Under the pieces are notes generated by a model. It ran no database searches. It was given only the letters and a program-made list of their open reading frames with translations, and had not been told where the DNA came from. Below are positions 3,513 through 59,861 of a DNA stretch of 59,861 bases, piece after piece (the stretch's first letter is position 1; each line of letters begins with the position of its first letter). Origin of the DNA: an uncultured Pelagibacteraceae bacterium. Lineage in GTDB: Bacteria; Pseudomonadota; Alphaproteobacteria; Pelagibacterales; Pelagibacteraceae. Both the position numbers and the translations under genes were made by a program. The DNA lies in assembly GCA_902593445.1 (NCBI GenBank), contig CACJIJ010000003.1, positions 1-59,861 of the forward strand, written 5' to 3'.

Positions 3513-4193
3513 ATGAATGGTAAAATATTTATTATTGAGGACGAACCTTCAATAATTCAATTAGTTCAACATAATCTTGAAAAAAACGGTTTTATAGTTT
3601 CATCATCAGTAAATGGAAATGATGGTTTAAAAGAATTGAAAAAGTTTCAACCAGACTTGCTTTTATTAGATTGGATGCTGCCCGATCTTTCAGGAGTTGA
3701 AATTTGCAAAAATATTAGAAAAGACACTAGTTACAATAATTTACCTGTGATTATGTTAACGGCTAAAGGTGAAGAAGAGGATAAAATAAAAGGTTTAGAT
3801 AGCGGCGTAGATGATTATTTAACTAAACCTTTTAGTTTCAATGAACTTATGGCAAGAATTAAAGCAGTTCTAAGAAGATCTAACCCTAATACGGTATCTG
3901 ATAATTTAGAGTTTGAAGATATAGTCTTAGATAGGATTGAAAAAAGAGTTTATAGAGATAAAAAAGAGATAAAACTTGGACCTACCGAATTTAGGTTATT
4001 AGAATTTTTTTTAGTAAATCCCAAAAGAGTTTATTCACGAGACCAAATTTTAGAAACTGTTTGGCCTAACAATATAAATGTCGAAAGTAGAACTATTGAT
4101 GTTCATATCAGAAGATTAAGAAAATCAATTAATATTCAAAATAAAAAAGAATTTATTAGAACTGTAAGATCCTCTGGTTATTCTTTTATTTAA
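3513..4193 (+). CDS. phoB: Phosphate regulon response regulator PhoB
   Basis: OmpR-type response regulator that activates phosphate starvation genes. The receiver domain (about 1-120) has the acidic pocket EDEP, the phospho-acceptor Asp53 in LLDWMLPD and the conserved lysine in LTAKGEE. The C-terminal winged helix (about 130-226) has the typical RVYSRDQILETVWP and TIDVHIRRLRKSI motifs. It is last in pstCAB-phoU-phoB, an order in which the regulator is made with the transporter that signals to it. The cognate kinase PhoR is not in the window. It converges on the next gene with an 8 bp gap. Confidence 0.95.
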   Translation: MNGKIFIIEDEPSIIQLVQHNLEKNGFIVSSSVNGNDGLKELKKFQPDLLLLDWMLPDLSGVEICKNIRKDTSYNNLPVIMLTAKGEEEDKIKGLDSGVDDYLTKPFSFNELMARIKAVLRRSNPNTVSDNLEFEDIVLDRIEKRVYRDKKEIKLGPTEFRLLEFFLVNPKRVYSRDQILETVWPNNINVESRTIDVHIRRLRKSINIQNKKEFIRTVRSSGYSFI

Positions 4194-4201
4194 AATTTAA
4201 T

Positions 4202-5083
4202 CTAATTTTTTTGTAGTTCATAGATAGAAACGTAGTGTTTCTTCTTAGGCAGTGGGATTATGGTTGGAACTTTAGTTAATCTTGGTTTTATCGATTTATT
4301 TCCTACAATAATATTTTTGTCATAATTTTCCAAATCAACCTCAGGATGAGGGTTTCCATCATTAATTAGAGGCCATGCATCACAAGCTCTATAACCAAAT
4401 AAAATTAAGGGTCTCGAGTTATTCATTTGATTGTGTCCAGAACCATGAACTGATCTACAATGAAAAAATACTACTGTTCCTGCTGTCCCAGTTATAGAAA
4501 CACTATCTTTGGTTCCTATTTTATTTTTCTTAGTGTCTATTTTTCCAACAAAATAATTTTCTTTGTTGTGGTGGCTGTACAATTTCTTTTTGTGTGAATT
4601 CTTTATTATTTTAAGTGGCCCATTTTTTTCATCGCAATCATCTAAATATATACCAACTGTGATCAAATCATCATTGGTATGTGGGTAAAAAGCCCAATCT
4701 TGGTGCCATCCAATTTCACTTCCTTTTTTCTTATTTGGTAGTTTAAAATTTAATTTACCTAGATGAAATCTAACTGTTCCACCTAACAATTTTTTAGCTA
4801 TGGATATAATCCTTTTATCTCTAGATAATTCATAGAAAACTTTATGTCTGTTCTGAGGATTATTTAGTCTTAAAATTTCTTTATTTTTTGAAGAACCTGA
4901 ATTGTATACAAAATGGTAGTTATCATAGGACTGAGTTCCATTTGTACCATTACCTTTTTTTCTTTTTTTTTCTTTAGAAATTACTTCATTAACAATTTTA
5001 TTTATTTTATTTATCTTTGATTGAGAAATTAGATTTTCTTTAACTAGAAAGCCATTTTTTTTAAATAAATTTAAATCATTCAT
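4202..5083 (-). CDS. PhyH-family Fe(II)/2-oxoglutarate dioxygenase
   Basis: Probable non-heme iron, 2-oxoglutarate dependent oxygenase of the phytanoyl-CoA dioxygenase (PhyH) family. The facial triad can be read as His127 and Asp129 in GWHQDWAFYPH plus His213 in SVHGSGHN, with Arg224 (NNSRPLILFG) as the likely 2-oxoglutarate anchor. The 293 aa length fits the family. It has no close functional neighbours: the Pho operon converges on it and znuA lies upstream in the same direction. The substrate is unknown; members of this family hydroxylate lipids, compatible solutes or phosphonates. The Pho-side location makes phosphonate oxidation imaginable, but nothing in the sequence proves it. Confidence 0.82.
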   Translation of the reverse strand: MNDLNLFKKNGFLVKENLISQSKINKINKIVNEVISKEKKRKKGNGTNGTQSYDNYHFVYNSGSSKNKEILRLNNPQNRHKVFYELSRDKRIISIAKKLLGGTVRFHLGKLNFKLPNKKKGSEIGWHQDWAFYPHTNDDLITVGIYLDDCDEKNGPLKIIKNSHKKKLYSHHNKENYFVGKIDTKKNKIGTKDSVSITGTAGTVVFFHCRSVHGSGHNQMNNSRPLILFGYRACDAWPLINDGNPHPEVDLENYDKNIIVGNKSIKPRLTKVPTIIPLPKKKHYVSIYELQKN

Positions 5084-5168
5084 AAAGTCAGATTATGAAA
5101 GAAAATAAATCTTCTTTAAAATAAATACAATGTTTTTTGTGAGATTAAATAACAGTAATAATTATTTG

Positions 5169-5215: not shown

Positions 5216-6304
5216 TTAACAACCTTTGAAAGATGCAGACATATTTCTAATTAAATTGAAATATAAGTCTTTTCCTGGGTCTAATGTTGCTCCTAATGGG
5301 TCAACTACTCCAGTTTTAATATTCATATCTTTTGCGACAGCTTTAATAATATCAGGGTTAAATTGAGGCTCTGAGAACACACAAGCAACTTTATCGTGCT
5401 CAATTATCTCTCTGATTTCTGCTAATTGTTCTGCACCAGGCATCACATCTGTGTTAACAGTAAAAGCACCTAATATATTTACATTAAATCTTTTCTCAAA
5501 ATATTGATAAGCATCATGGAATACAATTGAAGCAACACTGCTACTTAAATCAGTCATTACATCAATTGTAAGTTTATCAATTTCTTGTAAAGCTTTAGCT
5601 AAATTACTTTTGTATTTAGCTTCATTTTTTGGATCATTTTCAATTAAATGTTCTGCCATTTCATTTAACATAGCTTTTGCATTAATTGGGTCCAACCAAA
5701 TGTGTGGATCAAATTCACCATGCGCATGTCCATCATGATCGTCATGTCCGTGGTCGTCATGATCATCTTCTTTTTTACCATGATCGTCATGATCGTGGTC
5801 ATCTTCTTTTTTCCCATGATCATCATGGTCGTGATCATCTTCCTTTTTACCGTGGTCATCATGTCCATGGTCGTCATGATCATCCTCTTTTTTACCGTGA
5901 TCGTCATGTCCGTGATCATCATGATCATGTTCGTCAAAAATATTTCTTTCTCTAAATTTTAATACTTGCAATCCTTTAGTCTCCATTAATTCAATTTTTT
6001 CTGCTTTCTTAGCAATTGAACTCAATGGTTTTTCTAAAAAACTCTCTAAATCTTCACCAACCCAGAATATTAGGTCAGCATTTTGAAGCATTTTTGCATG
6101 AGAAGGTTTCATTGCAAATCCGTGTGGAGATGCATATCCATCAACTATTAAATCAGGTTTAGCAATACCATCCATTAAGTAACTAGCTAATGAATGAATT
6201 GGTTTAATAGAAGCAACTACTTTTATTTCAGCATTTGCTGGTGTAAAGAATGTTAGAATTGATAATATTGAGAATATAAGTGGTATTTTTTTAATATTTT
6301 TCAT
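5216..6304 (-). CDS. znuA: Zinc ABC transporter substrate-binding protein ZnuA with His-rich repeat
   Basis: Periplasmic zinc-capture protein of the ZnuABC importer. An N-terminal signal peptide ends near residue 25 (TPANA|EI). Metal ligands visible are His61 (ASPHGFAMKPSH), His201 (DPHIWLDP) and His262 (VFHDAYQYF), with an acidic partner near the C-terminus (VDPLGATLDPG). Between the first and second ligands, residues 125-196 form an extraordinary His/Asp loop made of repeated GKKEDDH(DDHG)H-type units. Such loops in ZnuA help gather zinc, but this one is long at about 72 residues. Divergent to znuCB-zur, sharing a promoter region with two Zur-like boxes, so expression is presumably switched on by zinc shortage. 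Confidence 0.95.
   Translation of the reverse strand: MKNIKKIPLIFSILSILTFFTPANAEIKVVASIKPIHSLASYLMDGIAKPDLIVDGYASPHGFAMKPSHAKMLQNADLIFWVGEDLESFLEKPLSSIAKKAEKIELMETKGLQVLKFRERNIFDEHDHDDHGHDDHGKKEDDHDDHGHDDHGKKEDDHDHDDHGKKEDDHDHDDHGKKEDDHDDHGHDDHDGHAHGEFDPHIWLDPINAKAMLNEMAEHLIENDPKNEAKYKSNLAKALQEIDKLTIDVMTDLSSSVASIVFHDAYQYFEKRFNVNILGAFTVNTDVMPGAEQLAEIREIIEHDKVACVFSEPQFNPDIIKAVAKDMNIKTGVVDPLGATLDPGKDLYFNLIRNMSASFKGC
5717..5932 (-). repeat. In-frame tandem repeat encoding the His/Asp metal-binding loop of ZnuA
   Basis: About 216 bp of degenerate tandem repeat inside znuA. It encodes four units beginning GKKEDDH, of 15, 12, 12 and 15 residues (long form GKKEDDHDDHGHDDH, short form GKKEDDHDHDDH), flanked by further HDDHGH blocks. 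All length changes are multiples of three, so the frame is kept. The near-identical DNA copies suggest recent expansion or contraction by slippage, so the copy number may vary between strains. Open frames on the opposite strand here are artefacts of the repeat. Confidence 0.9.
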
Positions 6305-55583: not shown

Positions 55584-56285
55584 TCAATTTAATACTCTTT
55601 TTAATTTTTTTAGATTCATTGTTTGCTTCAAAGGATAACCAATTTCTGTTTTTTTTGCCTTAATCGTATTTTTATTATGTGTCTTAGCAAAACTATAAGC
55701 TGACTTTGCTTTACCTCCTACATTAATTATTCCAAATCTATTTATCAATTTTGGTAGCATTAAAGCAACATCTTCGTGAAAAATATAATTTGAGTATAGA
55801 TTTGTATAAGCTTTTTTATGAGCAAATGGTTTTTCTGTCATTTGAATTCTTAGTACAAGAGAATTTTTATACATTAACACTGATGCTTCACCACCCATTT
55901 TTGACAAACCATAATTATTTATTGGTTTAATTCCATCAGTTTCTTTGTAATTACCTTTAGTGCATTCATAGACGTAGTTTGTTGAGAAATAAATAATTTT
56001 TATTTTAAATTTTTGACAAATTTTTACTAGGTTTGCTGTTCCTATTATATTTAAATCAATACTTTTTGAAATATTACTTTCATGTTGATTCATCGGGCGA
56101 GATAAACCAGCCGTATGTATAATCATATCTGGCTTGTTTTTTATTATGCATTTTTCTATAGATTTGAGATTAAGTATATTTAATTCCTTTTTTGAAAAAA
56201 ATTTTAGATTTAATTCTTTATTCTTTTTTTTTAAAACTTTTGCAAATCTTCCATTTCCACCAGTTACTAATATTGGTTTTCTCAT
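55584..56285 (-). CDS. RmlD-like sugar-nucleotide reductase (short extended SDR)
   Basis: An NAD(P)-dependent short-chain dehydrogenase-fold protein, 233 aa. It has the dinucleotide loop ILVTGGNGRFAKVL, DMIIHTAGLSRP, FSTNYVYE and the active YxxxK in NNYGLSKMGGEASVL. It resembles dTDP-4-dehydrorhamnose reductase but is about 50 residues shorter than usual RmlD. It would reduce the 4-keto group of the sugar nucleotide made by the upstream genes. Overlaps rfbC by 4 bp. Confidence 0.75.
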   Translation of the reverse strand: MRKPILVTGGNGRFAKVLKKKNKELNLKFFSKKELNILNLKSIEKCIIKNKPDMIIHTAGLSRPMNQHESNISKSIDLNIIGTANLVKICQKFKIKIIYFSTNYVYECTKGNYKETDGIKPINNYGLSKMGGEASVLMYKNSLVLRIQMTEKPFAHKKAYTNLYSNYIFHEDVALMLPKLINRFGIINVGGKAKSAYSFAKTHNKNTIKAKKTEIGYPLKQTMNLKKLKRVLN

Positions 56286-56806
56286 CTATATTTAATAAAA
56301 TTTTTAAAAGATATATTTGCTTTATCTTTAGCTGAAATAATTGGTTTTTTTATTGGCCATTTAATGTTTAAATCTTTATCATTCCATAAAATACCTCTTT
56401 CAAATTTTTTATCTCTATATTCTGTCATTTTATAATGTAATATTGATTCACTAGACAGGCTACAATACCCATGAGCAAATCCTCCAGGTATATAGAGTGA
56501 ATTGTTTAGTTTTTCAGATAATATTATCGAAAAATATTGGCCCATCGTTTTTGAATTTTTTCTACAATCAACAACCACATCAAAAATCTTTCCTTTTAAT
56601 ACTGTGATAAATTTACCTTGAGGTTTTTTTATCTGAAGATGTAAACCTCTAATAACATTTTTTTTAGAAAGTGAAATTATATCGAACGGAAACTTTTTTT
56701 TTATTAACTTATTTAAGAAAAGTTCTCTTGTATATCCTCTTTTATCATTAAAAGTGTCTTTCTTATAAATTTTTAATCCATTAAATTTTGTTTTTATTAT
56801 TTTCAT
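56282..56806 (-). CDS. rfbC: dTDP-4-dehydrorhamnose 3,5-epimerase family protein
   Basis: Cupin-fold epimerase, 174 aa. RmlC landmarks are intact: VIRGLHLQIKKPQGK (catalytic His), VVVDCRKNSKTMGQYFSIILSEKLNNSLYIPGGFAHGYCSLS and the tyrosine in HYKMTEYRD with ILWNDKDLNIKWP. It would epimerise dTDP-4-keto-6-deoxyhexose at C5 and/or C3. If the neighbour removes the C3 hydroxyl first, only C5 epimerisation would matter. Overlaps both neighbours by 4 bp. Confidence 0.85.
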   Translation of the reverse strand: MKIIKTKFNGLKIYKKDTFNDKRGYTRELFLNKLIKKKFPFDIISLSKKNVIRGLHLQIKKPQGKFITVLKGKIFDVVVDCRKNSKTMGQYFSIILSEKLNNSLYIPGGFAHGYCSLSSESILHYKMTEYRDKKFERGILWNDKDLNIKWPIKKPIISAKDKANISFKNFIKYR

Positions 56807-57999
56807 TTATTAATTAATTTTGTAAAAACTTTACAAATATAATTCGCATCATCAATTGACATTCCGTGATGACAACCTAAAAGAATTCCATTTTTCATAA
56901 CATCATCAGCTACCGCATTACAGTTTTTGGAAGATTTGTATATTTTGTTTCTCATAACCGGTTGTTTTAAAATATTACCCGTAAAAATTGTTCTTGTTTG
57001 AATGTTATTTTTTTCAAAATATATTTGAAGTTCTTTTCTATTAAAAAACTTATTTTTTTTAATTACTAATGGAAATGCTAACCATGGCGTCTTAACACCT
57101 TGGTACATTTCTGGTAATTTAAATAAATTATTATAATTTTTAAAAAAGGATATTAATGTTTTAAAATTTCTATTTCTTATCTTAATATTCTCTTTAAGTT
57201 TTTTTAACTGTTCTAATGCAAATGCAGCAGAAATTTCAGATGGAATAAAATTATATCCTAATTCTGAGAATACATATTTTGCATCGTATTCAATACCAGA
57301 AACCTTTATATTAAATCTTTTTTTTATACTTTCAGATTCATTAAAGGTAGCTGAAGATCTTCCCCATCCTCGAAGTAATTTTGCTTTTTCATACAATTTA
57401 TAATCATTAAAACAAACTATGCCACCTGTACCTGCTCCATTTATAATATGAGATGCATAAAAGCTATTTGTTACAATATCAGAATAATAACCAGTATTGC
57501 CTTTATTAAAGGAATAACCAATTGTATCTGCTGAGTCTTCGATCACTTTTAATTTATATTTTTTTGCTATTCTAGATATGCTTCTCCAATTAGCTATATT
57601 TCCTAAAAGATTTGGAATCATTATTGCAACAGTTTTTTTGTTGATACACTTTTCTATTTGTTTAAAGTCAGCCACAAATTTATTTTGCTCAACACCTATA
57701 AAATGAGGTACTAGCCCTAATTGATAAATGGGTGCAACAGTAGTTGAAAAAGTTAAATTTGGTGTAATAATTTCATATCCTTTTTTAAAATTTAAAGAGG
57801 CAAGTGCCAATAAATTAGCAGATGACCCAGAGTTAACCATTAAACCATATTTTTTACCAAAAATTTTGGAAACTTTTTTTTCCAAAATTTTTACATTTTT
57901 TCCTCCTGCTAAGGATAAACTATTATATTTTAAAACATTTAAAACAGCATTTATTTCTTTTTTATCATAAACTGCTCTACCGTAATAAATTTTTTTCAT
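56803..57999 (-). CDS. DegT/RfbH-like PLP sugar 3-dehydratase with His in place of the PLP lysine
   Basis: A fold-type I PLP protein of the DegT/DnrJ/EryC1/StrS superfamily, 398 aa. The PLP aspartate is Asp155 in VIEDSADTIG. Where aminotransferases have the Schiff-base lysine, the sequence reads SFYASHIINGAGTGG with His184. This Lys-to-His exchange defines the sugar 3-dehydratases E1/RfbH and ColD. The segment LRGWGR ... YDAKYVFSELGYNFIPSEISAAF aligns with RfbH, but the four Fe-S cysteines of E1 are absent (Ala157, Ser215, Ala217 and a non-Cys near 225). I infer an iron-sulfur-free 3-dehydratase acting on a dTDP-4-keto-6-deoxy sugar. Starts the rfbC-RmlD-like run, after a 110 bp spacer. Confidence 0.82.
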   Translation of the reverse strand: MKKIYYGRAVYDKKEINAVLNVLKYNSLSLAGGKNVKILEKKVSKIFGKKYGLMVNSGSSANLLALASLNFKKGYEIITPNLTFSTTVAPIYQLGLVPHFIGVEQNKFVADFKQIEKCINKKTVAIMIPNLLGNIANWRSISRIAKKYKLKVIEDSADTIGYSFNKGNTGYYSDIVTNSFYASHIINGAGTGGIVCFNDYKLYEKAKLLRGWGRSSATFNESESIKKRFNIKVSGIEYDAKYVFSELGYNFIPSEISAAFALEQLKKLKENIKIRNRNFKTLISFFKNYNNLFKLPEMYQGVKTPWLAFPLVIKKNKFFNRKELQIYFEKNNIQTRTIFTGNILKQPVMRNKIYKSSKNCNAVADDVMKNGILLGCHHGMSIDDANYICKVFTKLINK

Positions 58000-58109: not shown

Positions 58110-58988
58110 TTAATTTTTAGTTTTTAAAATTTTTTTTAGATAATTAGAATATTCACATTTTCCATAAAATTTTATTTGATTTGAAATATTTTTTTTATTT
58201 ATCCATTTTTTTATAAAGGCAATTTCCTCTAAGCAAGCAATTTTTAAACCTTGTTGGTTTTCTATTGCTTGAACAAAAGCTGAAGTTTTGTAAAAATCAT
58301 CTATAGATCCAGTATCTAACCAGGCACCACCTCTACCAATAATATCAGCATTAAGTTTATTTTTTTTCTTATAAATATTTAGTAAGTCAACTATTTCCAA
58401 TTCATTTCTTTTAGATGGTTTTAATGTTTTCGAATATTTAGACACATTTTTATCAAAAAAATATAAACCAGTTATTGCATAGTCAGAAAAAAATTTTTTT
58501 GGTTTTTCTTTTATTGAAACAACCTTATTTCGTGAATTAATCTTTGCAACACCAAATAATTCGGGATTGAAAACTTTATGTAACAATATCTTGGCACCTA
58601 TTTTTAATTTTGAGTTGTTGATTAAATTTTTGGTTAAATTCTGACCATAAAAAAAATTATCACCAAGTATTAAGGCAACATTTTTTTTATTTATAAATTT
58701 TTCTCCAAGAATAAAAGCGTCTGGCAAACCACGTGGCTTATCTTGCTCTTCATATTTAATCTTAATGCCCAAATTTTTGCCATTTGGTATTATTTTTTTA
58801 TATTGATCTAATTGACCTTTATTTACAATTATCAAAATATCTTTTATGTTGGCTAACATCAAAATTGATAATGGGTAAAATATTAAAGGTTTATCATGGA
58901 TTGGTAGTAGTTGTTTATTTACAGCTTTAGTTAAAGGACTCATTCTGGTACCTAAACCTCCAGCCAAAATTATCCCCTTATTTATCAT
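58110..58988 (-). CDS. rfbA: Glucose-1-phosphate thymidylyltransferase
   Basis: RmlA, first step of dTDP-deoxysugar synthesis (glucose-1-phosphate + dTTP to dTDP-glucose), 292 aa. Motifs are GIILAGGLGTRMSPLTKAVNKQLLPI, the DKP and FYPLS segments, YEEQDKPRGLPDAFILGE, LILGDNFFYG and WLDTGSIDDFYKTS. The length is standard. It overlaps rfbB by 4 bp. Confidence 0.94.
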   Translation of the reverse strand: MINKGIILAGGLGTRMSPLTKAVNKQLLPIHDKPLIFYPLSILMLANIKDILIIVNKGQLDQYKKIIPNGKNLGIKIKYEEQDKPRGLPDAFILGEKFINKKNVALILGDNFFYGQNLTKNLINNSKLKIGAKILLHKVFNPELFGVAKINSRNKVVSIKEKPKKFFSDYAITGLYFFDKNVSKYSKTLKPSKRNELEIVDLLNIYKKKNKLNADIIGRGGAWLDTGSIDDFYKTSAFVQAIENQQGLKIACLEEIAFIKKWINKKNISNQIKFYGKCEYSNYLKKILKTKN

Positions 58989-59861
58989 TTAGATCCAAAT
59001 CTTTTTATAATGTCTTCTTTTTTAAATGATTTAAAATATAAACTGTTATTAATATACCATACAACAGTTTTATTAAGTCCTTCATTTATATTATTTTGTT
59101 TAGTCCATTTAAGTTCTTTTATTATTTTTTTGCTATTGAGAGCATAACGTTGATCATGGCCCGGTCTATCTTTTATAAATTTAATTTTTGATTTTGTATT
59201 AAACTTATTTTTTTTGAATATTTTAAATAATTTTGAACATATGTTTAAATTATTAATATTTTCATTTGATCCAATATTATAAAACTCACCTTTTTTCCCT
59301 TTTGTATAAATTTTATGTAAAGCTTCACAGTGATCGACCACATAAATCCACTCTCTAGAGTTTTTTCCATCACCATAAATAGGTAAATCTCTATTATTAA
59401 TAATATTATAAATTAGCTTGGGTATTAATTTTTCTGGGTGTTGCTTTGGACCATAATTATTTGAGCAATTTGTTATAATTATTGGAAGTCCATAAGTAAC
59501 ATAATAAGAATAAACTAAATGATCTGATGATGCCTTGCTTGCTGCATAGGGGGATGATGGTTTATAAGGATAATTTTCTGCAGTCCTACCTTTGGCTATA
59601 TCACCATAAACTTCGTCTGTAGATACATGTATCAATTTAAATTTTTTATTTTTTTTATAATAATTTTTTACAGCCTCTAAAAGATTGTATACAGCAAGTA
59701 TATTGTTTTTAATAAAAGGGTAGGGCGTATCTATAGATCTATCAACATGAGTTTCAGCAGCAAGGTTAAATATAGCTGTAGGTTTTTCATTTGATAAAAT
59801 TTTAGAAATTCTATTTTTATTTCCTATATCACATTTAATAAATTTATAATTTTTATTATTC
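58985..59861 (-). CDS. rfbB: dTDP-glucose 4,6-dehydratase (N-terminus cut by window end)
   Basis: RmlB, second step (dTDP-glucose to dTDP-4-keto-6-deoxyglucose). The frame is open to the window edge: the portion beyond the track's 59635 (an internal TTG) reads IFNLAAETHVDRSID, a classical RmlB segment. HVSTDEVYGD, the active YxxxK in SPYAASKASSDHLVYSY, NCSNNYGPKQHPEKLIP and GDGKNSREWIYVVDHC follow. Only the N-terminal Rossmann start is missing. Overlaps rfbA by 4 bp. Confidence 0.95.
   Translation of the reverse strand, partial: NNKNYKFIKCDIGNKNRISKILSNEKPTAIFNLAAETHVDRSIDTPYPFIKNNILAVYNLLEAVKNYYKKNKKFKLIHVSTDEVYGDIAKGRTAENYPYKPSSPYAASKASSDHLVYSYYVTYGLPIIITNCSNNYGPKQHPEKLIPKLIYNIINNRDLPIYGDGKNSREWIYVVDHCEALHKIYTKGKKGEFYNIGSNENINNLNICSKLFKIFKKNKFNTKSKIKFIKDRPGHDQRYALNSKKIIKELKWTKQNNINEGLNKTVVWYINNSLYFKSFKKEDIIKRFGSK

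Follow-up and report, generated by a model that had tools for sequence, protein, structure and literature searches.

The window analyzed here, a stretch of 59,861 nucleotides, comprises one entire contig from a SAR11-type genome of 1.19 Mb (87% complete) and encodes a protein that is, with a probability of about two in three, an iron-free, PMP-dependent dTDP-4-keto-6-deoxy-D-glucose 3-dehydratase employing a ColD-type glutamate cycle. Together with its relatives, this protein constitutes a third clade among the His-type sugar 3-dehydratases that is real, conserved, and apparently new to the literature; the open-licence papers searched do not describe any CDP/dTDP 3-dehydratase devoid of the cluster cysteines. 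The two routes of C3 deoxygenation are classically illustrated by E1 and ColD, i.e., radical reduction through an Fe-S cluster and hydrolysis combined with glutamate recycling. Among the characterized cases, CDP and dTDP sugars use the iron route and GDP sugars the iron-free route (PMC8987622), a link between nucleotide and route that is broken by a Cys-free clade residing in CDP and dTDP operons.

As the original prediction had proposed from the sequence of the window, a histidine replaces the PLP lysine. Codon 184 is CAT, read on the minus strand from 57450 to 57448 within NSFYASHIINGAGTGG, and alignment with E1 (PDB 3bcx), ColD (2gms), and lysine aminotransferases puts His184 at the PLP-lysine position, where it falls on His220 of E1 and on the catalytic histidine of ColD. 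His184 is kept in 116 of 116 distinct family members and a sequencing error at this codon is therefore rejected. A pseudogene is ruled out as well, since the reading frame is open and selection on the gene is strongly purifying (pN 0.12 and pS 0.65 against a homolog of 82% identity). Also, all His-type sequences, the window protein included, join in the phylogenetic tree with a support of 100/100 versus the Lys-type sequences. Neither an erroneous codon nor a placement among lysine-type enzymes was thus found, and the comparison of sequences supports a His-type sugar 3-dehydratase over an aminotransferase.

The window protein matches the Pfam family PF01041 (DegT/DnrJ/EryC1/StrS) with 246 bits. 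On the NCBIfam model for RfbH it scores 301.3 bits, below the cut-off of 423 bits, and the four-Cys RfbH from SAR11 reaches 738 bits on the same model. An AlphaFold2 model based on a 22-sequence alignment (pLDDT 82.7, pTM 0.82) has E1 as its best structural match (E 1.9e-35, TM 0.87), followed by ColD, and with E1 as the best PDB match, at 30% identity on the model, the RfbH-like character of the overall sequence noted earlier is borne out. Active-site geometry cannot be judged from this model, because the loops 181-191 (around His184), 213-221, and 243-251 have pLDDT values below 50. PDB entry 9wvy (“putative NDP-4-keto-6-deoxyglucose-3-dehydratase”) was considered as a solved member of the family and rejected, as it scores 102 bits versus 189 for E1.

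The cluster cysteines 193, 251, 253, and 261 of E1 align with Ala157, Ser216, Thr218, and Ile225 of the window protein, the register of the last pair being approximate because the loop is gapped. All four cysteines are absent, in agreement with the original prediction, and a cysteine in loop 208-229 occurs in 0 of the 116 family members. RfbH sequences have cysteines at positions 157, 216, and 218 in 54 of 54 cases, and all 54 carry at least three cysteines in the loop. Position 157 is occupied in the family by Ala (110/116) or Cys (6/116); as a cysteine equivalent to Cys193 is present in ColD and in these six members, it is not specific for the cluster. A conserved alternative set of four Cys/His ligands was not found among the 116 members or in the group alignment, and a cluster held by other ligands was rejected, Cys376 having no conserved set of partners. 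The PLP-site residues Ser57-Gly58-Ser59, Asp155 (by its place in the fold, presumably the partner of the pyridine N1), Ser179, and Arg336 are conserved throughout, E1 and ColD included. The dehydratase-specific Gly341-Asn342 is conserved too, with a gap or Pro at this place in Lys-type sequences. All sequences of the seed alignment have Asn250, and compared with RfbH the loop following His184 contains one additional residue.

A tree of 56 sequences (LG+C20+F+G4, 1000 bootstraps) shows that the “third variant” suggested initially is a separate clade. The Cys-free family groups on its own (100/100), outside of both the RfbH/E1 clade (100/99) and the ColD clade (99/95), and cyanophage RfbH-like sequences form a further clade (100/100) that is sister to RfbH at 99/95. 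The four-Cys type of RfbH is encoded by cyanophage S-H68 and by other viruses (L212:3902-5197, L214, and L213). It is unlikely that the family descends from RfbH/E1, lost the [2Fe-2S] cluster, and now performs ColD-type chemistry. Such a history would agree with the E1 match, with Phe84, Asp158, Arg228, Asp239, the WGR motif, and the GN..QP motif, all common with RfbH (Pro98 is RfbH-like as well), with the presence of both types in RfbF-RfbG operons, and with the best tree, which pairs both clades with weak support (72/30). However, RfbH is monophyletic, and the AU test rejects trees in which the family groups with only a part of RfbH (p=0.0003), so that the RfbH ancestry assumed in the original prediction is not borne out. 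In addition, Met54, Pro80, Leu131, Phe244, Pro253, Glu255, Gly371, and His377 are common with ColD and not with RfbH, Val55 being another such ColD-like residue. Equivalents of Cys 251/253/261 are found only in RfbH and its cyanophage sisters, for which one gain suffices, and loss of a cluster is therefore less likely than never having had one. A lost cluster, though not supported, would be possible if the shared ancestor of the family and RfbH had possessed it. As alternative orders of the three His-type clades are not rejected (AU p 0.175 with ColD as sister and 0.43), one gain in RfbH is simpler than a loss in the Cys-free family, and a single gain on the RfbH stem is the simplest history under every resolution. 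We consider the chances about even that a third PLP-dependent class deoxygenates dTDP- and CDP-4-keto-6-deoxyglucose without iron, maybe representing the ancestral state, with RfbH/E1 acquiring the [2Fe-2S] cluster later. If so, C3 deoxygenation of these sugars needs no radical/reductase route.

The reviewed His-type enzymes are 3-dehydratases that have in common a PMP ketimine, the His-catalyzed loss of the C3 hydroxyl group, and a 3,4-ene intermediate, which E1 and SpnQ reduce through their [2Fe-2S] cluster; ColD needs no cluster, its intermediate being hydrolyzed and PMP regained from glutamate (PMC8987622). With no cluster in the window protein, the ColD route is the remaining one, and the absent cysteines leave the iron-free, ColD-like chemistry that had been predicted as the probable and best remaining mechanism. 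From sequence and by analogy we infer the reaction, its glutamate recycling, the substrate, the product, and the order of steps as follows. Bound PLP would be converted to PMP by L-glutamate, and PMP would condense with the 4-keto product of RmlB to a ketimine. His184 would take a proton from the C4' carbon of PMP while the C3-OH leaves, and ColD-type hydrolysis of the 3,4-ene intermediate would release dTDP-4-keto-3,6-dideoxyhexose, ammonia, and PLP in a cycle operating without a [2Fe-2S] cluster or an E3 reductase. C5 would then be epimerized by RmlC and C4 reduced by the RmlD-like SDR, the end product being a dTDP-3,6-dideoxy-L-hexose destined for a cell-surface glycan. In Campylobacter, a 4,6-dehydratase, a PLP/glutamate C3-dehydratase, a C5-epimerase, and a C4-reductase lead to an L-3,6-dideoxy sugar (PMC10440746), and because the layout is the same, the window locus would by analogy make dTDP-3,6-dideoxy-L-hexose. 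Some of the sea’s most abundant cells would accordingly be predicted to display 3,6-dideoxy sugars.

Table 1. Features of the 3-dehydratase gene and of the dTDP-sugar locus in the window.
Feature	Coordinates	Strand	Remarks
RmlB, dTDP-glucose 4,6-dehydratase	58985..59860	-	TIGR01181 363.7 bits vs cut-off 365.1; 5' part missing
RmlA, glucose-1-phosphate thymidylyltransferase	58110..58988	-	TIGR01207 349.8 bits vs cut-off 360.65
Predicted nucleotide-sugar 3-dehydratase (DegT fold, His-type, Cys-free)	56803..57999	-	398 aa, stop included in coordinates
Asp155 codon, predicted PLP pyridine-N1 partner (E1 Asp191)	57535..57537	-	invariant in all groups
Ala157 codon, at E1 cluster Cys193	57529..57531	-	alignment
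His184 codon (CAT), predicted catalytic base replacing PLP lysine	57448..57450	-	E1 His220, ColD His188
Ser216 codon, at E1 cluster Cys251	57352..57354	-	invariant in family (116/116)
Thr218 codon, at E1 cluster Cys253	57346..57348	-	alignment
Ile225 codon, at E1 cluster Cys261	57325..57327	-	alignment, register approximate
RmlC, dTDP-4-keto-6-deoxyglucose 3,5-epimerase family	56282..56806	-	TIGR01221 173.3 bits vs cut-off 155.75
RmlD-like SDR, 233 aa, candidate 4-ketoreductase	55584..56285	-	PF04321 E 8e-28

The dTDP-sugar cluster that had been recognized around the gene is real (Table 1), RmlC scoring above its NCBIfam cut-off and RmlA and the truncated RmlB just below theirs. All genes of the cluster lie on the minus strand, beginning with rmlB, which is truncated at the end of the contig, and continuing with rmlA, the 3-dehydratase gene, rmlC, and the rmlD-like gene, with overlaps of 4 bp between rmlB and rmlA, between the 3-dehydratase gene and rmlC, and between rmlC and the rmlD-like gene, and with a gap of 110 bp between rmlA and the 3-dehydratase gene. 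The RmlD-like SDR is short and its 87.6 bits on TIGR01214 are well below the cut-off of 224. The genome of the window (87% complete) contains no CDP-glucose 4,6-dehydratase and no Gmd (GDP-mannose 4,6-dehydratase) above cut-off, for which reason dTDP-4-keto-6-deoxyglucose is the likely substrate here. At a distance from this locus, an ORF at 5216-6304 of the window (minus strand) resembles the substrate protein of a metal-binding ABC transporter, contains a long His/Asp repeat (DHDDHGHDDHGKKEDD), and adjoins an ABC ATPase, a permease, and a Fur-like regulator; assigned by eye, the region is a probable zinc uptake locus.

Matches to the protein (threshold E<=1e-60) exist in 47 of 297 SAR11-family genomes surveyed, 36 of them belonging to a group A with 62-82% identity to the window protein (partly fragments), eight to a group B with 49-53% identity, and three being true RfbH with 36-39% identity, which leaves the Cys-free gene in 44 of the 297 genomes. 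The order RmlB-RmlA-(SDR)-3-dehydratase-RmlC recurs in group A, its SDR having an Epimerase Pfam domain, and in a good part of the SAR11 loci the 3-dehydratase gene has no rml genes next to it. RmlB is encoded in 30 of the 36 carriers of group A, the dTDP group, versus 141 of 250 genomes lacking any match (Fisher p 0.0018, a value that is only indicative because the genomes are related and partly incomplete). In group B and in relatives outside SAR11, the gene follows those for RfbF and RfbG, the CDP-glucose 4,6-dehydratase (TIGR02622 well above cut-off), and the product encoded downstream of it is a ThDP enzyme resembling YerE, a transketolase split into a pair of proteins, a C-methyltransferase (PF08484), or an SDR. 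The same slot after RfbF-RfbG is taken by four-Cys RfbH in other genomes, SAR11 included, and such natural pairs, with the cluster present or absent at one operon position even inside SAR11, allow testing why a cluster is used. As the substrate of YerE is CDP-3,6-dideoxy-4-keto-D-glucose (PMC12247030), i.e., the expected product of the 3-dehydratase, YerE-like neighbors fit 3-dehydration.

Given these CDP loci, the enzyme of the window might act on a CDP- or GDP-4-keto-6-deoxyhexose instead, and the rml genes might serve the synthesis of ordinary rhamnose, which RmlABC(D) alone would yield. This is rather improbable, as neither of the corresponding 4,6-dehydratases was detected above cut-off in the 87% complete genome and the 3-dehydratase gene overlaps rmlC.

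The split transketolase pair stands directly after the 3-dehydratase in CDP-glucose operons (L034:6367-8047, L035, and L038), which suggests two-carbon branching of a 3-deoxy sugar. In another locus (L044:6989-9334), a Lys-type DegT protein with the motif SFHETKN is encoded directly downstream of a Cys-free 3-dehydratase, a pair that would fit a 4-amino-3,4,6-trideoxy sugar. Where neighbors are readable, a subclade from Alphaproteobacteria, Rhodococcus, and Embleya (L197, L198, L199, and L208) is found in catabolic-looking settings, with genes for a GMC oxidoreductase, GH65, P450, IclR/TetR regulators, and a zinc alcohol dehydrogenase and with no nucleotide-sugar genes nearby. Might these be His-type enzymes for a non-nucleotide substrate?

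An E3-type reductase domain, FAD_binding_6 (PF00970), was not found in the 18 SAR11 genomes searched. It is equally absent from the SAR11 genomes with four-Cys RfbH (L040, L041, and L042 in G080, G208, and G050, of which G208 is 96% complete), so its absence does not discriminate and was dropped as proof of an iron-free route. RfbH of SAR11 must itself use a donor beyond any FAD_binding_6 reductase found, and one may ask whether the window protein is a 3-dehydratase relying on another electron carrier, or on another iron or flavin cofactor, in place of glutamate recycling. Conservation of Cys376-His377 would agree with this idea, but it is judged quite improbable: in the collected set of 116 members, which is SAR11-heavy, the only frequent cysteines are Cys376 (97%) and Cys196 (89%), a second conserved set of ligands is lacking, and ColD works without such a cofactor. 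Least credible is a true aminotransferase in which His184 or another residue replaces the lysine and a 4-amino sugar is formed, for although the protein has the DegT fold, databases name its relatives so, and SpnQ transaminates in vitro without its reductase (PMC8987622), the family groups with the reviewed His-type enzymes, all 3-dehydratases, and its YerE-like, C5-epimerase-like, and ketoreductase neighbors need a 4-keto and not a 4-amino sugar.

A 3-dehydratase of the Cys-free type is not restricted to SAR11. In a scan of species genomes, the related stretches numbered at least 566, with SAR11 accounting for all of the best 80, and members occur in other Alphaproteobacteria, roseobacters included. 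Members with 39-50% identity are located on plasmids of Roseibium, Leisingera, Palleronia, Sinorhizobium meliloti, Ensifer, Rhodococcus erythropolis, and Embleya, and below these, identity falls to about 30% at RfbH and ColD. The notion that iron-free chemistry suits an iron-poor ocean finds no support, because soil rhizobia (Sinorhizobium/Ensifer), Rhodococcus, and Embleya carry the family and because three sampled SAR11 genomes use a four-Cys RfbH; an origin by iron limitation is thus unsupported. Public records label relatives (L206:7998-9230, L207, L211, and similar ones) as DegT/DnrJ/EryC1/StrS or class I/II-fold aminotransferases, a label that is very probably wrong given the His motif, and the present analysis corrects the annotation of a gene usually called aminotransferase in SAR11, rhizobia, and roseobacters. 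Family members are present on five viral contigs, too. These virus-assigned IMG/VR contigs (L223-L227, at about 4000-5100) encode Cys-free proteins with the motifs EDSCD, SFYGSHIITAxGxGG, and WGRGVD, and on most of them a small SDR follows the 3-dehydratase gene, so that a phage-encoded 3-deoxysugar module seems possible.

Among known systems, E1/RfbH (DdhC, AscC; CDP-4-keto-6-deoxyglucose 3-dehydratase, PDB 3bcx; also the dTDP-using SpnQ type) is closest in sequence and fold. It has the fold, His220, Asp191, and the WGR and GN motifs in common with the window family, and relatives of the window protein occupy its operon slot after RfbF-RfbG. In contrast to E1/RfbH, the window family lacks the [2Fe-2S] cysteines (0/4), has a shorter N-terminus, and forms a separate clade. 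DegT/DnrJ/EryC1/StrS aminotransferases such as PseC, PerA, QdtB, and WecE have the fold and PF01041 in common with the window protein but differ from the family, which possesses His184 for Lys and the dehydratase GN motif and is split from them in the tree at 100/100. ColD (GDP-4-keto-6-deoxymannose 3-dehydratase, PDB 2gms) resembles the window family in having His for Lys and no Fe-S cluster, and by analogy the PLP/glutamate cycle of ColD and of the Campylobacter GDP-heptose C3-dehydratases would be expected for the window protein as well. Nevertheless, identity to ColD is only about 30%, the clades are separate, the setting is dTDP/CDP and not GDP, and the loop reads WGR..RF in the window family whereas it is AHGWTRNLP in ColD.
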